Origin: Bdellovibrio bacteriovorus
Lineage (GTDB): Bacteria; Bdellovibrionota; Bdellovibrionia; Bdellovibrionales; Bdellovibrionaceae
Length of the DNA: 64,000 bases
Reading direction: 5' to 3'
Assembly (NCBI RefSeq): GCF_001592755.1
Contig: NZ_LUKF01000018.1
Span: 1-64,000 of the forward strand
The notes below the pieces were generated by a model. It was given only the letters and a program-made list of their open reading frames with translations, had not been told where the DNA came from and did no database searches. The position numbers and the translations under genes were made by a program. Below are positions 13,781 through 39,100 of the stretch, in pieces (the first letter of the stretch is position 1; the number at the start of each line of letters is the position of its first letter).

Positions 13781-15346
13781 CTATTTTCCTAATCGGCGCA
13801 GGATTTTATCTGCGACGGATTTGGTTTGTTCGATTTTGAAAAGGTATCCTAAGCCGAAGTACAATAAGCCGTAGATTGAAAGAGCGATGGCGGCTCTAAT
13901 GATAACGTGGAGATCGGATTGCAGAACGAAGCGAGCAATAGCGGCGCCGGATAATGCGGAAATAATAGCGGCGGACCATACTTTGATTTGGAATGGGATT
14001 TTTAATCCGGTGTGGCCGATTTTTTTGTTCAATGCTTTGCGGAGGAAATAGAATTCAATCCAGCCAGCTAAACCTGCAGATACCGTCAAGCCCGCCGTTC
14101 CCCACTGGCGTTCGAAGCCCAAGGTTTCAGGTAAGTAGAACGCGAAGATCACACCCAAGATTGTTGTGAAGATCACGCGAATGATCGCGAATTGCAGTGG
14201 GGTTCTTGTGTCTTTCAATGAATAGAACGTCGACGAATACAGGCGGCCTAAGGTCGTTGCTAAAAGCCCCACGGAATAACCCGCCAAAACCATCCATACG
14301 AAATCGGTGTTTTCTTTTTGGAACTCCCCTGTTTGGAAAACGGCGCCGACAATCAAATCACCTAAGAAGAAAAACGCCACGGCAGAGGGAATGACAAAGA
14401 AGGCAATTTGCTCTAGCCCGCGGTTCAGACGTTTTTGTAAGTACTCTTTAATTTCCAGATCAGAACCAGTTGCTTGAGACATTGCTGGCAACTCGGCGAC
14501 GGACACGCTCATACCAAACAAACTTACCGGCAACAGATAAAGTGTCTGTGCATATGCCAAAGCCGAAACCGCACCTGTCGGCAATAAACTCGCTAACATA
14601 TTGTCGATATAAGCACTGATCTGAACCACACCGCGAGAAACCACCACGGGAGCAAAGTTTTTCGTGATCGAACGAACGCTGCCTAGTTTTAAATCCAATG
14701 ACGGAAAGATCTTTTTTCCTAAACGAAGCGCTGAAGGCAATTGAATCGCAAATTGCAAAAAACTTCCTGCAACGAGTCCCCAGGAAACGGTCACGGCTAA
14801 ATCATACTGCCCTTGCTTACTTCCCCACATCACCAATGTAAAGATGATTGCCAAGTTCCAAATAACTGGAGCCACATACGAAAGAAAAAATTTACGGTGC
14901 GAATTTAAAATCCCTAAACACCATGCCGACATGACCAAGAATCCCGTGCCTGGGAAAAGAATTTGCACGATCTGGATCGTCAATGCGCGTTTTTCACCTT
15001 GGAAACCGGGAGCAATAAGATCAATTAAGAATGGAGTTGCAAAGACGCCCACCAAAACCAAAAAAGACGTCATCAAGAATAAAAGACTGCCGATAACAGA
15101 TGCGACCTTTGCGGCCTCTTCGTCATGTTTTTTTGCTAAGAGCTGGGCATAGACCGGAATGAAGCTTGCGGAAAGAACACCTTCACCAAAAAGATTTTGC
15201 AGGAAGTTGGGAATTTTAAGGGCGGCTTTAAACGCATCCCCGGCATCCGAGTTTCCAAAGAAATGAGCGAAAACTCTTTCACGAACCAGCCCTGCAATAC
15301 GACTTAAGAATATTCCCAAACCTACTAACAGGGCATGACTTTTCAC
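13781..15346 (-). CDS. murJ: Lipid II flippase MurJ
   Basis: A 521-residue integral membrane protein of about 14 helices with MurJ signatures at the N-terminus (LSRIAGLVRERVFAHFFG, GDAFKAALKIPNFLQNLFGEG, LSASFIPVY). MurJ moves lipid-linked peptidoglycan precursor from the inner to the outer face of the cytoplasmic membrane and is essential in most bacteria. Its ATG overlaps the uvrC stop by four bases (ATGA), so it is translationally coupled to uvrC. This pairing of a wall-synthesis gene with a repair gene is odd but appears to be simple operon packing. Confidence 0.95.
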   Translation of the reverse strand: MKSHALLVGLGIFLSRIAGLVRERVFAHFFGNSDAGDAFKAALKIPNFLQNLFGEGVLSASFIPVYAQLLAKKHDEEAAKVASVIGSLLFLMTSFLVLVGVFATPFLIDLIAPGFQGEKRALTIQIVQILFPGTGFLVMSAWCLGILNSHRKFFLSYVAPVIWNLAIIFTLVMWGSKQGQYDLAVTVSWGLVAGSFLQFAIQLPSALRLGKKIFPSLDLKLGSVRSITKNFAPVVVSRGVVQISAYIDNMLASLLPTGAVSALAYAQTLYLLPVSLFGMSVSVAELPAMSQATGSDLEIKEYLQKRLNRGLEQIAFFVIPSAVAFFFLGDLIVGAVFQTGEFQKENTDFVWMVLAGYSVGLLATTLGRLYSSTFYSLKDTRTPLQFAIIRVIFTTILGVIFAFYLPETLGFERQWGTAGLTVSAGLAGWIEFYFLRKALNKKIGHTGLKIPFQIKVWSAAIISALSGAAIARFVLQSDLHVIIRAAIALSIYGLLYFGLGYLFKIEQTKSVADKILRRLGK

Positions 15347-17232
15347 TCTTCAACCTCAGCATCTTCATCATCTGGTTCATTCAATTGAAGCAGAATGCGC
15401 TCCGCCAGTACACGATTGAACCCTTTAAGAGTCGCAATTTCTTCAGGTACGGCACCCTTGATTTCATCAATAGAGTTAAAGCGAGTCAAAAGAACTTTCT
15501 TTCTTTTTTCGCCCAATCCCACAACATAATCCAGTTCACTTTCCAAAGAACTGCTTTCACGAAGCTTACGATGGTACGTGATGGCAAAACGATGGGCCTC
15601 GTCACGGATGCCTGTCAGAATATGCAAGGCCTCGGCGTTATGTTTAAAGATCACCGGATTAGACCTATTAGGCAGGAAGAAGCGCTCTTCGGTGGACTCC
15701 ACTTCTTGTTTTTGGAAGTCACTTTCCGTCCGCGCCTTCGCCAACCCCACAACGGGGATATCGCTGCGACCAATTTCTTGTAGAATACGAATGGCTTGAG
15801 TCAATTGCCCCTTACCACCATCAATCACAATAAGTTGCGGATCTTCATACTCAGTGTGCTTAAATCGACGGCTGAGAACCTCATACATCGAAGCAAAGTC
15901 ATTGATACCTTGAACCGTTCTAATTTTATAGCGACGGTAATGTTCTTTTGCCGGAACACCATCTTCAAAAACCACTTGCGAAGCAACGGTTTCAGCACCT
16001 TGGAAGGTCGAAATATCATAACACTCAATACGACGTGGAAGTTCTGGCAACGACAGTTTTTCTTTGATTTCGTCTAGACCGCGAAGTTTTTCTTCCGACT
16101 TAGAAACATATTTCAAGAAGTGAGACTTGGCATTTTCATTAGCCATGTCGATCAAATTGCGACCACGCTCATCGGTAGCAAATCGAACGACGACTTTATT
16201 GCCCGAGCGTTCTTTCAAAACTTCGCCCATCAATTTCGTTAAGTCATTGCCGATATCCACCGTCAACAAAACTTCATCCGGGATAAAGTTGTCTTCGTAA
16301 TACTGATTGAGGAAATCCACCAGCCATTCTCGTGGATCTTCCGCCGGATCATTTGGATCAAAGTGAGGTAAGAAGTGAGACCGAGTTCCAATCACCCTTC
16401 CCGAGCGAACATGCACCGTTTCCACCAAGCAACCACGATGATCACCAAAGAAACCCACCGCATCCTGATCTTTTTCAGAAGTGTCATTGATAACGGCCTG
16501 TTTTTCTAAAATGGCTTTAATCGCTTGAACCGAGTCGCGCAGACGGGCCGCCACTTCAAATTTTTCTTCTTCAGCGGCAACCATCATTCTTTCCGTGATG
16601 GATTTAACGACTTTCTTATTCTGCCCTTTCAAAAAGAGCTTCGCGCCTTCGACTTCTTCACGGTAATCCGTTTGATTGATGTACTCCACGCAAGGCGCCG
16701 TACAACGACCGATCTGGTAAGTCATACAAGGCCGCGTGCGAGATTTAAAAACCGCATCGGTGCAATCACGAATCTTAAAAGTCCGATTTAAAAAACGAAT
16801 GGTGCCTTGAACCGCAAATCCAGAAGTATAAGGACCAAAATAAAGCGACCCATCCTTCTTTACTTTGCGAGCAACGTAAAGACGAGGATAATCATCAGCC
16901 CAGGTAAAACGAATGTAAGGATAAGCTTTGTCATCACGAAGACGTATATTGTACTTCGGACGATGTTTCTTAATTAACGAAGCTTCCAATAAGAAAGCTT
17001 CGACTTCGGTTTTAGTCAGAATGTATTCAACTTCATGAATATTCTGAACCAACAACCGCGTCTTTGGTGAATGATCCTTGCTATCGGTAAAATAGCTTCG
17101 AACACGCGCGCGCAAATTCTTAGCCTTACCGATATAAATGATCTTATCGGCATGACCCTTCATCAGATAGACCCCGCTTTGTACCGGGAACTCCCTGACT
17201 TTATCGCGCACTTCCTCGAACTTAGAAATCAT
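15343..17232 (-). CDS. uvrC: Excinuclease ABC subunit C
   Basis: Makes both incisions in nucleotide excision repair. The protein is 629 residues from the ATG at 17232. In order: the GIY-YIG nuclease (GVYLMKG, IIYIGKAKNLRARVRSYF), the cysteine cluster (CTD...RPCMTYQIGRCTAPC), a UVR helical hairpin, the RNase H-like second nuclease (IECYDISTFQG, IVIDGGKGQL), and C-terminal helix-hairpin-helix motifs. The ATG at 17232 has an ideal GGAGGG six bases upstream. The frame stays open to 17274 only because it translates a repeat. Both the ribosome site and the start codon lie in one arm of that repeat. uvrB lies just upstream and murJ is coupled downstream. Confidence 0.96.
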   Translation of the reverse strand: MISKFEEVRDKVREFPVQSGVYLMKGHADKIIYIGKAKNLRARVRSYFTDSKDHSPKTRLLVQNIHEVEYILTKTEVEAFLLEASLIKKHRPKYNIRLRDDKAYPYIRFTWADDYPRLYVARKVKKDGSLYFGPYTSGFAVQGTIRFLNRTFKIRDCTDAVFKSRTRPCMTYQIGRCTAPCVEYINQTDYREEVEGAKLFLKGQNKKVVKSITERMMVAAEEEKFEVAARLRDSVQAIKAILEKQAVINDTSEKDQDAVGFFGDHRGCLVETVHVRSGRVIGTRSHFLPHFDPNDPAEDPREWLVDFLNQYYEDNFIPDEVLLTVDIGNDLTKLMGEVLKERSGNKVVVRFATDERGRNLIDMANENAKSHFLKYVSKSEEKLRGLDEIKEKLSLPELPRRIECYDISTFQGAETVASQVVFEDGVPAKEHYRRYKIRTVQGINDFASMYEVLSRRFKHTEYEDPQLIVIDGGKGQLTQAIRILQEIGRSDIPVVGLAKARTESDFQKQEVESTEERFFLPNRSNPVIFKHNAEALHILTGIRDEAHRFAITYHRKLRESSSLESELDYVVGLGEKRKKVLLTRFNSIDEIKGAVPEEIATLKGFNRVLAERILLQLNEPDDEDAEVEE

Positions 17233-17326
17233 ATCAGGCCCTCCGCTGCAAGGCGCGAGGAGGAAGGCGTACATCTCGTACGTCGACGACGAGCAACGCA
17301 GTCAGAGGAGGGTTGTTTGAGATGAT
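17228..17326. repeat. Dispersed hairpin repeat, copy 1 (uvrB-uvrC gap)
   Basis: The core reads GCAAGGCGCGAGGAGGAAG then GCGTAC, a five-base loop, GTACGTC and GACGACGAGCAACGCAGTC. Outer arms are ATCATATCA (17228-17236) with CCCTCC (17239-17244) against GGAGGG (17307-17312) with TGAGATGAT (17318-17326), pairing at 14 of 15 positions. It fills nearly the whole gap. In the transcript running to uvrC the arm hides the uvrC ribosome site and ATG. Shares its core with copies at 26228 and 38988. Confidence 0.85.
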
Positions 17327-17328
17327 TT

Positions 17329-19419
17329 CTACTTAAGGCCATCTTTGAGGACCTCTGCGCTTGTCTGCTCCACTTCACCGCTGCGGATATTCAATTCAAT
17401 GATTTGCAAACGCTTGATTTCATCGCGGACTTTCGCCGCTTCCTCAAACTCAAGATCTGCTGAAAGTTTTTTCATCTTCGCGCGCAGCTTAGCAATTTCT
17501 TCCTGAAGTTTATCGGGTTGATTTGAGAATTTCGTAACCACGGCTGCGGTCTTATTTTCCCCTTGAAGAGGTCCGCCAGCCAGTGTTCCGTCAAAGACTT
17601 CGCCCAAACCTTCTTTGATTCTTTTACGAATCGATTGCGGAGTGATGCCATTGTCTTCATTATATTTTTGCTGAATGCGGCGGCGACGCTCGGTTTCACC
17701 CATGGCTTTTTCCATGCTCTCCGTGATTCTGTCTCCGTAAAGAATCACATGCCCATTTAAGTTACGAGCGGCTCGGCCAATAGTTTGAATTAACGAACGC
17801 TCTGAGCGCAAAAAACCTTCCTTATCGGCATCTGTGATACCAACAAGACTGACCTCTGGAATATCCAAACCTTCTCTTAACAAGTTGATACCCACAAGAA
17901 CGTCAAAAACTCCCAAACGCAAATCGCGTAAGATTTCTGTACGCTCTACCGTCTGAACTTCACTGTGCAGATATTTAACTTTAATGCCTAGATTTTCATA
18001 ATATTCAGTCAAATCTTCCGCTGAACGCTTCGTCAACGTCGTGATAAGAACACGCTCGTTCTTTTTGATACGATCACGGATCTCTTTTAACAAATCATCG
18101 ACCTGGTGTTTGACCGGACGCACTTCAACAACGGGGTCAATCAAGCCTGTCGGACGAATGATCTGCTCAACGATGATACCTTCGGATTTTTGCAGCTCGT
18201 AAGTTCCCGGTGTCGCCGATACATAGACGACCTTATCCATCATTGTTTCAAATTCTTGAAAATTTAAAGGTCGGTTGTCTAAAGCCGAAGGCAAACGGAA
18301 ACCGTGTTCGACCAGAGTCATTTTACGAGCGCGGTCCCCACGGTACATGCCGCCGATTTGCGGCACGGTCACGTGTGACTCATCGATGAAGGTGACGAAT
18401 TCTTTCGGGAAGTATTCTAAAAGTGTCGGAGGTGGCTCCCCCGGCCCACGACCTGTCATGTGACGAGAATAGTTCTCGATCCCCTGACAGAAACCCATTT
18501 GCTCCATCATCTCGATATCGTAGTAAGTTCTTTGCTCGAGACGTTGAGCTTCTAAGAACTTCATTTCTTTATTCAAATCAACCAGGCGTTCGCGCAGTTC
18601 ATCTTGAATCGTGCGAATCGCGCGCTTTAAGTTGTCGTCACTGGTGACGTGATGGCTTCCCGGATAAATACCGATTTGATCCAGCTCTTCTAGAACCTGA
18701 CCTGTTAACGGATCAATCCAAGAAAGACGCTCGATAAAGTCGCCAAAGAATTCCACACGCACGGCGCGGTCTTCTTCGTAAGAAGGAAAGATCTCGACAT
18801 TATCGCCGCGAACGCGCACAGTTCCGCGCGAAAAATCCACGTTGTTACGTTGATACTGAATGCGGATCAATTCACGAATCAAATGATCACGCTTCATTTC
18901 CGTATTTGAAACGATTTGAATCATCATGCCTTCGTAAGCTTCCGGAGAACCCAAACCGTAAATACAAGAAACCGAACTGACGATGATCACATCGCGACGA
19001 TCAAACAACGAACGCGTTGCCGAGTGGCGCATACGATCGATCTGTTCATTGATCGCCGAGTCTTTTTCGATGTAAGTGTCCGTCGACGGAATATAAGCTT
19101 CTGGCTGATAATAATCGTAGTAGCTGACGAAGTACTCGACCGCATTGTGCGGAAAGAGTTCTTTAAACTCTGCATACAGCTGGGCCGCCAAAGTTTTATT
19201 TGGAGCAAGCACCAACGCTGGCTGATTGAGTTTTGCAATAGTGTGCGCCATCGAAAAAGTTTTTCCCGATCCTGTCACACCCAGAAGTGTCTGATGTTTT
19301 AATCCAGCATCAAAGTTTTCCATCATCTGCTGAATCGCACGAGGCTGATCCCCAGAAGGTTTATACTCAGAGACTAGTTGAAAGTTCTTTTTATAAGCAG
19401 AGGCCATCCCTTCGAGCAT
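17329..19419 (-). CDS. uvrB: Excinuclease ABC subunit B
   Basis: The damage-verifying helicase of nucleotide excision repair, about 696 residues. Motifs in order: PSGDQPRAI, Walker A GVTGSGKT, the beta-hairpin [10 protein letters not shown], the DESH box ([11 protein letters not shown]), YVSATPG, the helicase C domain ([13 protein letters not shown] and QTIGRAARN), and a C-terminal UVR motif ([25 protein letters not shown] in part) that binds UvrC. The start could be the ATG at 19419 or the one at 19407; the latter gives the more typical MASAYKK N-terminus. The frame is open to 19506 but that extension is not conserved in style. It is likely transcribed with uvrC and murJ through the repeat. 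Confidence 0.96.
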
Positions 19420-19551
19420 AGCATAATTTCGAAAGGTGCCTGCTTCTTTTTTGGGTCTACGTTGCGTCAATCCAAAGTCCAGCCCTTCATTTCTGCATAG
19501 TGACATGGAAAGTCCCTTGCTTCGAGCTGAGCTCCGTTCGAGAGTTTTACT

Positions 19552-38987: not shown

Positions 38988-39100
38988 ACCAAGTGCGTAA
39001 CAAAATGGTCGCGGCCGCGGCGCGAGGAGGAAGGCGTACTCCCAGTACGCCGACGACGAGCAACAAAGGCCCCGGCCATTTTGTTAGCACCCTACTTGGT
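38988..39100. repeat. Dispersed hairpin repeat, copy 3 (lysS end to rhodanese gene)
   Basis: The core GGCGCGAGGAGGAAGGCGTAC, loop, GTACGCCGACGACGAGCAAC is nearly identical to copy 1 (split here: first part 39019-39039, second 39045-39065). Outer arms differ: ACCAAGT, a gap, TAACAAAATGG then CGCGGCC on the left, and the mirror on the right (17 of 19 in the inner block, plus 7 of 7 in the outer ACCAAGT). The right arm contains the last two lysS codons and its stop, so the left arm is an inverted near-copy of the lysS end. Confidence 0.85.

Follow-up and report, generated by a model that had tools for sequence, protein, structure and literature searches.

The window, a 64,000-nt stretch of the Bdellovibrio bacteriovorus contig NZ_LUKF01000018.1 (positions 1 to 64,000), carries three genes on the minus strand that were identified with NCBIfam models as uvrB, uvrC and murJ. 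A repeat of 105 nt is found directly after the uvrB stop codon. The features at this junction are the following:

17329-19506, minus strand: uvrB, encoding the UvrB excinuclease subunit (open reading frame; NCBIfam PRK05298.1/TIGR00631.1; junction comparison)
17225-17329, minus strand: repeat insert of 105 nt with TA on both sides, TA-GAAATCAT...ATGATTTC-TA (comparison with insert-free congeners)
15343-17232, minus strand: uvrC from its displaced start (open reading frame, NCBIfam, junction comparison)
13781-15346, minus strand: murJ, whose GTG overlaps the uvrC stop codon (open reading frame, NCBIfam)

In the congeners with a readable junction, the uvrC ATG lies within or at the end of uvrB, as in GCGGAGGTCCTAAAGGATGGCCTCAAGTAGTTTTGAGGAA, and in those free of the insert it is preceded by GGAGG or a variant. 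Among 24 genomes, only that of the window (G000) and that of a sister species (G003) gave a match covering the junction, insert included, in full. Both retain the ancestral uvrC ATG together with its ribosome site (GAGG), contained in the last codons of uvrB. The repeat had been predicted to be an insertion, and the congeners that lack it bear this out; an assembly artefact is unlikely, since the insert is carried by two independent assemblies. The TA at its borders appears to have been duplicated from AAGTAAGTTCG in the congeners. TA flanks and inverted ends, both present here, would be expected of a MITE with a TA target duplication; most other copies of the repeat do not have TA at both ends, and no transposase was tied to the copies.

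The first two residues of UvrC past the methionine are encoded by the arm of the repeat together with the flanking TA. An in-frame ATG farther upstream, at 17274, would in principle allow a UvrC of 643 aa but was rejected as the start: it lies at the tip of the hairpin described below, no convincing ribosome site precedes it, and the congeners align to a start near 17232. At the other end of the gene, the overlap with the murJ GTG reads GTGA (15343-15346, minus strand); because of this overlap, the coupling of murJ after uvrC that the original prediction put forward is plausible.

The repeat has the organization of a long hairpin, and the new uvrC ribosome site and start codon are both located in its 3′ arm:

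17307-17331, minus strand: hairpin 5′ arm, beginning at the uvrB stop codon and holding CCCTCC
17247-17305, minus strand: conserved core (tip) of the repeat, common to dozens of copies in the genus
17222-17244, minus strand: hairpin 3′ arm, holding the new Shine-Dalgarno sequence GGAGGG (17244-17239) and the new uvrC ATG (17232-17230)

On the uvr transcript, CCCUCC (17312-17307, minus strand) is complementary to the uvrC Shine-Dalgarno sequence GGAGGG, and UAGAAAUCAU is complementary to AUGAUUUCUA, inside which the uvrC AUG is found. At the start codon, ATCATCTCA (17326-17318) faces TGATATGAT (17236-17228), with eight of the nine positions paired. Both pairings had been claimed from the sequence and both are present. 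The extent of the outer arm was understated: farther out, TAGAAATCAT and ATGATTTCTA form a perfect 10-bp match, and the 14-nt arms are 93% complementary.

Fold prediction for the 111-nt element alone (17331-17221) gives -38.6 kcal/mol (z = -5.0), a value that none of 200 shuffles equalled; the copy of the sister species reaches -43.5 kcal/mol (z = -4.5) and beats all 200 of its shuffles. The wider 141-nt region named in the original prediction shows only a modest excess (z = -1.5, 15 of 200 shuffles as good). In the minimum-free-energy fold of the minus strand, the core does not outcompete the outer arm: the helices at the Shine-Dalgarno sequence and at the AUG are both formed alongside the core. 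In G000, the probability of the helix closing the Shine-Dalgarno sequence and the AUG swings from 0.01 to 0.99 with the length of flanking sequence folded, so that this pairing is the most stable predicted fold only conditionally. In G003, it is 0.99 at each of the flank lengths used and also when the span was limited to 110-120, and both differences from G000 tighten the stem.

The ancestral start codon opens a reading frame that traverses the hairpin:

17229-17342, minus strand: leader open reading frame of 37 codons that opens at the ancestral uvrC ATG (17342-17340), crosses the hairpin and closes with a TGA (17231-17229)

This frame, which like the ancestral start codon was absent from the original prediction, is open across the whole insert in both species, and in both its TGA overlaps the new uvrC ATG as ATGA (17232-17229). 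The leader of G003 has 36 codons in the same frame; a 3-nt indel that keeps the frame and a single synonymous change separate the two versions. GAGG is retained about 9 nt upstream of the ancestral ATG, and the predicted cost of opening this ribosome site (12-13 kcal/mol) is close to that of the native uvrC sites of congeners. Leader and uvrC have two features of a translationally coupled pair, namely an overlap of stop and start, and an upstream ribosome site and start codon belonging to the leader itself. Such an arrangement is seldom produced by the repeat family: with other copies placed at the junction, the leader stopped next to a start codon that had a ribosome site in 3 of 168 graft trials, a rough rate, as each copy was tried with three trims that are not independent. 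One of these three successes is the uvrB-uvrC copy itself, and another is not open through the insert.

How far the hairpin occludes the uvrC start was estimated as the cost of opening the region from -18 to +13, in equilibrium predictions that leave translation outside the model. The cost is 11-13 kcal/mol in G000 (11.1-12.8), within the range of 6.5-16.5 kcal/mol of 18 insert-free congeners, and about 18 kcal/mol in G003, where the site is tighter than in G000 and in the insert-free congeners; the modelled occlusion is therefore ordinary in G000 and stronger in the sister species. When the 5′ arm is held open, the cost in G003 drops from 18 to about 10.5 kcal/mol, with a smaller drop in G000. 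In a ribosome-walk folding, intermediate positions inside the core gave no lower cost until the ribosome was near the stop.

The original prediction proposed that the hairpin could repress uvrC translation, with murJ coupled after it. As a dedicated translational off-switch, the hairpin would hold uvrC and murJ down until it was opened by a factor, by temperature or by stress. The Shine-Dalgarno sequence and the AUG do both lie in the stem, the fold of the element beats all shuffles, and in G003 the pairing has a probability of 0.99 under almost every setting, with both differences acting to tighten it. However, any ribosome moving along the leader would routinely open the stem, the opening cost in G000 is ordinary, and a hairpin of this kind is common to the whole repeat family, with no regulator or temperature feature found; we consider such a switch improbable. 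What stands of the proposed repression is the pairing of the two sites; a distinctive repressor is not supported, the G000 cost being within the congener range. Among the agents proposed to open the stem, a ribosome moving through the leader is likely the normal state, and nothing pointed to a helicase or to a temperature switch. We therefore regard the hairpin as a likely block that leader translation opens, through translational coupling, rather than as a stand-alone off-switch, and ribosomes probably keep uvrC on.

The repeat is dispersed in the genus, with 12 copies in G000 and 0-25 copies per genome found by model search. Related repeats extend beyond the genus, to others of its family and order. 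A consensus from MAFFT and RNAalifold recovered only a 5-bp GTAC hairpin, because the stem sequences vary; hence, complementarity within copies was compared with that across copies. The arms of 56 of 61 distinct copies are more complementary than in all 200 shuffles, and for 47 of 58 copies the best partner among all copies is their own 3′ arm, while the identity between copies is 32% for the 5′ arms vs. 72% for the cores. As far as sequence can tell, the family is a conserved tip of about 60 nt carried on stems that differ at each locus, with arms that stay complementary. Two Bdellovibrionia MAG contigs carry tandem related repeats 82 nt apart (L111, 4338-4458, and L112, 3404-3606), and longer variants are located at the 3′ end of the RNase P RNA in G008 and G002 (L131 and L130).

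A looser exact-pattern search of genome contigs yielded five loci, all in Bdellovibrionaceae or Bdellovibrionia. No repeat was found by exact pattern outside Bdellovibrionota, where diverged copies would be missed, and plasmids gave no match; judged by exact pattern, the family is restricted to Bdellovibrionota. Rfam covariance models, run on 12 loci, identified only tRNAs and RNase P nearby and had no match on the repeat. Bdellovibrio is not mentioned in the REP papers PMC3733652 and PMC12306157, nor in a survey of stem-loop families (PMC2267715). Searches of open-licence papers yielded nothing relevant to uvrB-uvrC coupling or to terminator repeats of Bdellovibrio, and an earlier description is possible.

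Copies often lie at gene ends. In a survey of 42 loci with gene calls from a simple in-house script, the core lies 20-34 nt past the stop codon of the upstream gene in 20 of the 26 copies with an upstream gene on the same strand, uvrB included. The window contains a second copy:

38988-39096, minus strand: second repeat copy, directly downstream of another, conserved gene

Several congeners have an ordinary intrinsic terminator at this locus instead. This replacement, together with the position of the 20 copies, is what would be expected if the repeat were an attenuator or polarity element, the hairpin cutting transcription or stabilising the uvrB 3′ end and leader translation letting RNA polymerase pass. 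At least five T in the next 8 nt are, however, present in only 9 of 61 copies, and the uvrB-uvrC copy has no U-tract, nor was a terminator called at its hairpin, which makes this role quite improbable here. The copy was likewise rejected as an intrinsic terminator in the sense of a G+C-rich hairpin followed by a U-tract.

Since its stem begins at the uvrB stop codon, the hairpin might also stall ribosomes finishing uvrB, trigger mRNA cleavage and lower uvrB expression. A passage of PMC12306157 that cites earlier work reports down-regulated translation for E. coli REPs within 15 nt of the stop codon. In its sequence, however, the repeat does not belong to the REPs, and such an effect would be hypothetical in a Bdellovibrio-type lineage; we regard this explanation as highly improbable.

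Between G000 and G003, the insert differs by one substitution in 102 aligned sites and a 3-nt indel. The third codon positions of the flanking genes differ at 117 of 533 sites in uvrB (22%) and 139 of 541 in uvrC (26%). Four other repeats are shared by the pair, with 3, 2, 14 and 1 differences in 109 nt, respectively. Sequence flanking the first two diverges by about 6-12%, and the last sits in a stretch with almost no divergence. In the repeat with 14 differences, a block is changed in both arms, mostly by paired changes, and the arms stay largely complementary. One repeat locus in the two genomes (L239 and L247, both at about 300-409) has a stem block altered on both arms with the pairing largely kept, which suggests templated or selected compensation. 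The conservation of the insert is weakened as proof of uvrC regulation: because most of the other shared repeats are equally conserved, the constraint on the hairpin is, on this comparison, mostly a property of the family and alone no proof of such regulation.

The similar conservation of most other shared copies, with no link to uvrC, would agree with an insertion that is simply tolerated, a selfish or incidental copy of the hairpin past which uvrC uses its new Shine-Dalgarno sequence and AUG with little regulatory consequence. So would the dispersal of the family at 0-25 copies per genome and an accessibility of the new site that, as predicted for G000, falls inside the insert-free congener range. 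A leader stop on the new AUG is nevertheless rare among the grafted copies, and the site is tightly paired in G003, so that we hold a merely tolerated copy to be somewhat unlikely.

With moderate confidence, from sequence and modelling, we lean towards the explanation that the repeat displaced the uvrC start and that a leader from the old start carries translation through the hairpin onto uvrC. A dispersed Bdellovibrionota hairpin repeat landed just past the uvrB stop, where the uvrC start formerly overlapped uvrB, parting the old start from its gene and shifting the frame. The 3′ arm of the repeat supplied a substitute Shine-Dalgarno sequence and AUG, placed in the stem of the predicted RNA hairpin. 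The old start, behind its ribosome site in uvrB, would drive the leader of 36-37 codons through the entire hairpin; the ribosome would unwind it, terminate at the UGA overlapping the uvrC AUG and re-initiate on uvrC, and translation of murJ would follow via its own GTGA overlap. The analysis shows the sequences, the insertion, the frame, the overlap, the predicted fold and the conservation, whereas use of the leader start, formation of the hairpin in the cell and efficient re-initiation are inferred. Translation of uvrC would thus depend on ribosomes coming from uvrB and the leader, rather than be shut off.

More tentatively, the family may represent a Bdellovibrionota element not described before, located at gene ends, whose tip is conserved and whose stems are rewritten on both arms together. 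At uvrB-uvrC it was possibly co-opted to gate uvrC and murJ under the control of the leader, with the repeat as the source of the hairpin and the leader stop as well as of the ribosome site and start codon. The junction is a before-and-after case in which a dispersed palindrome moved the start codon of a DNA-repair gene with the translational coupling of the operon apparently preserved. The ancestral state is given by the insert-free congeners, which makes the role of hairpin and leader directly testable. No repeat family of this kind, in which the tip is conserved and the stems are compensated separately at each locus, was found in Rfam or in the repeat papers checked.

Translational coupling through a leader or upstream open reading frame with an overlapping AUGA stop-start is a known arrangement. 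The uvrC leader resembles such leaders in that its stop overlaps the start, a Shine-Dalgarno sequence lies just before, and a hairpin would close the start unless the leader is translated. Unlike in those, uvrC owes its hairpin, its ribosome site and start codon, and the greater part of the leader to a single dispersed repeat, and the leader begins at uvrC's own former start. Like extragenic palindromes such as REPs (GTAG and CGTC superfamilies, PMC3733652; RepRanger survey, PMC12306157), the repeat is short, dispersed and often found right after stop codons, and able to form mRNA hairpins. REPs of the GTAG and CGTC types are short palindromes (20-40 bp), one end of which bears an unpaired GTAG or CGTC tag (PMC3733652); the Bdellovibrionota repeat falls outside this definition, being about 105 nt long and having a variable stem below a conserved tip in place of a short conserved palindrome. 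The stem-loop replacement of IS1272-type elements (PMC5678879) offers a possible route for the swapping of palindromes at a terminator site, although no transposase was linked to the repeat in this analysis and the uvrB-uvrC target was not palindromic. Pneumococcal BOX repeats likewise add an open reading frame at the end of operons, without good Shine-Dalgarno candidates (PMC3049150), whereas the uvrB-uvrC repeat supplies a plausible ribosome site and a start codon for an existing gene.
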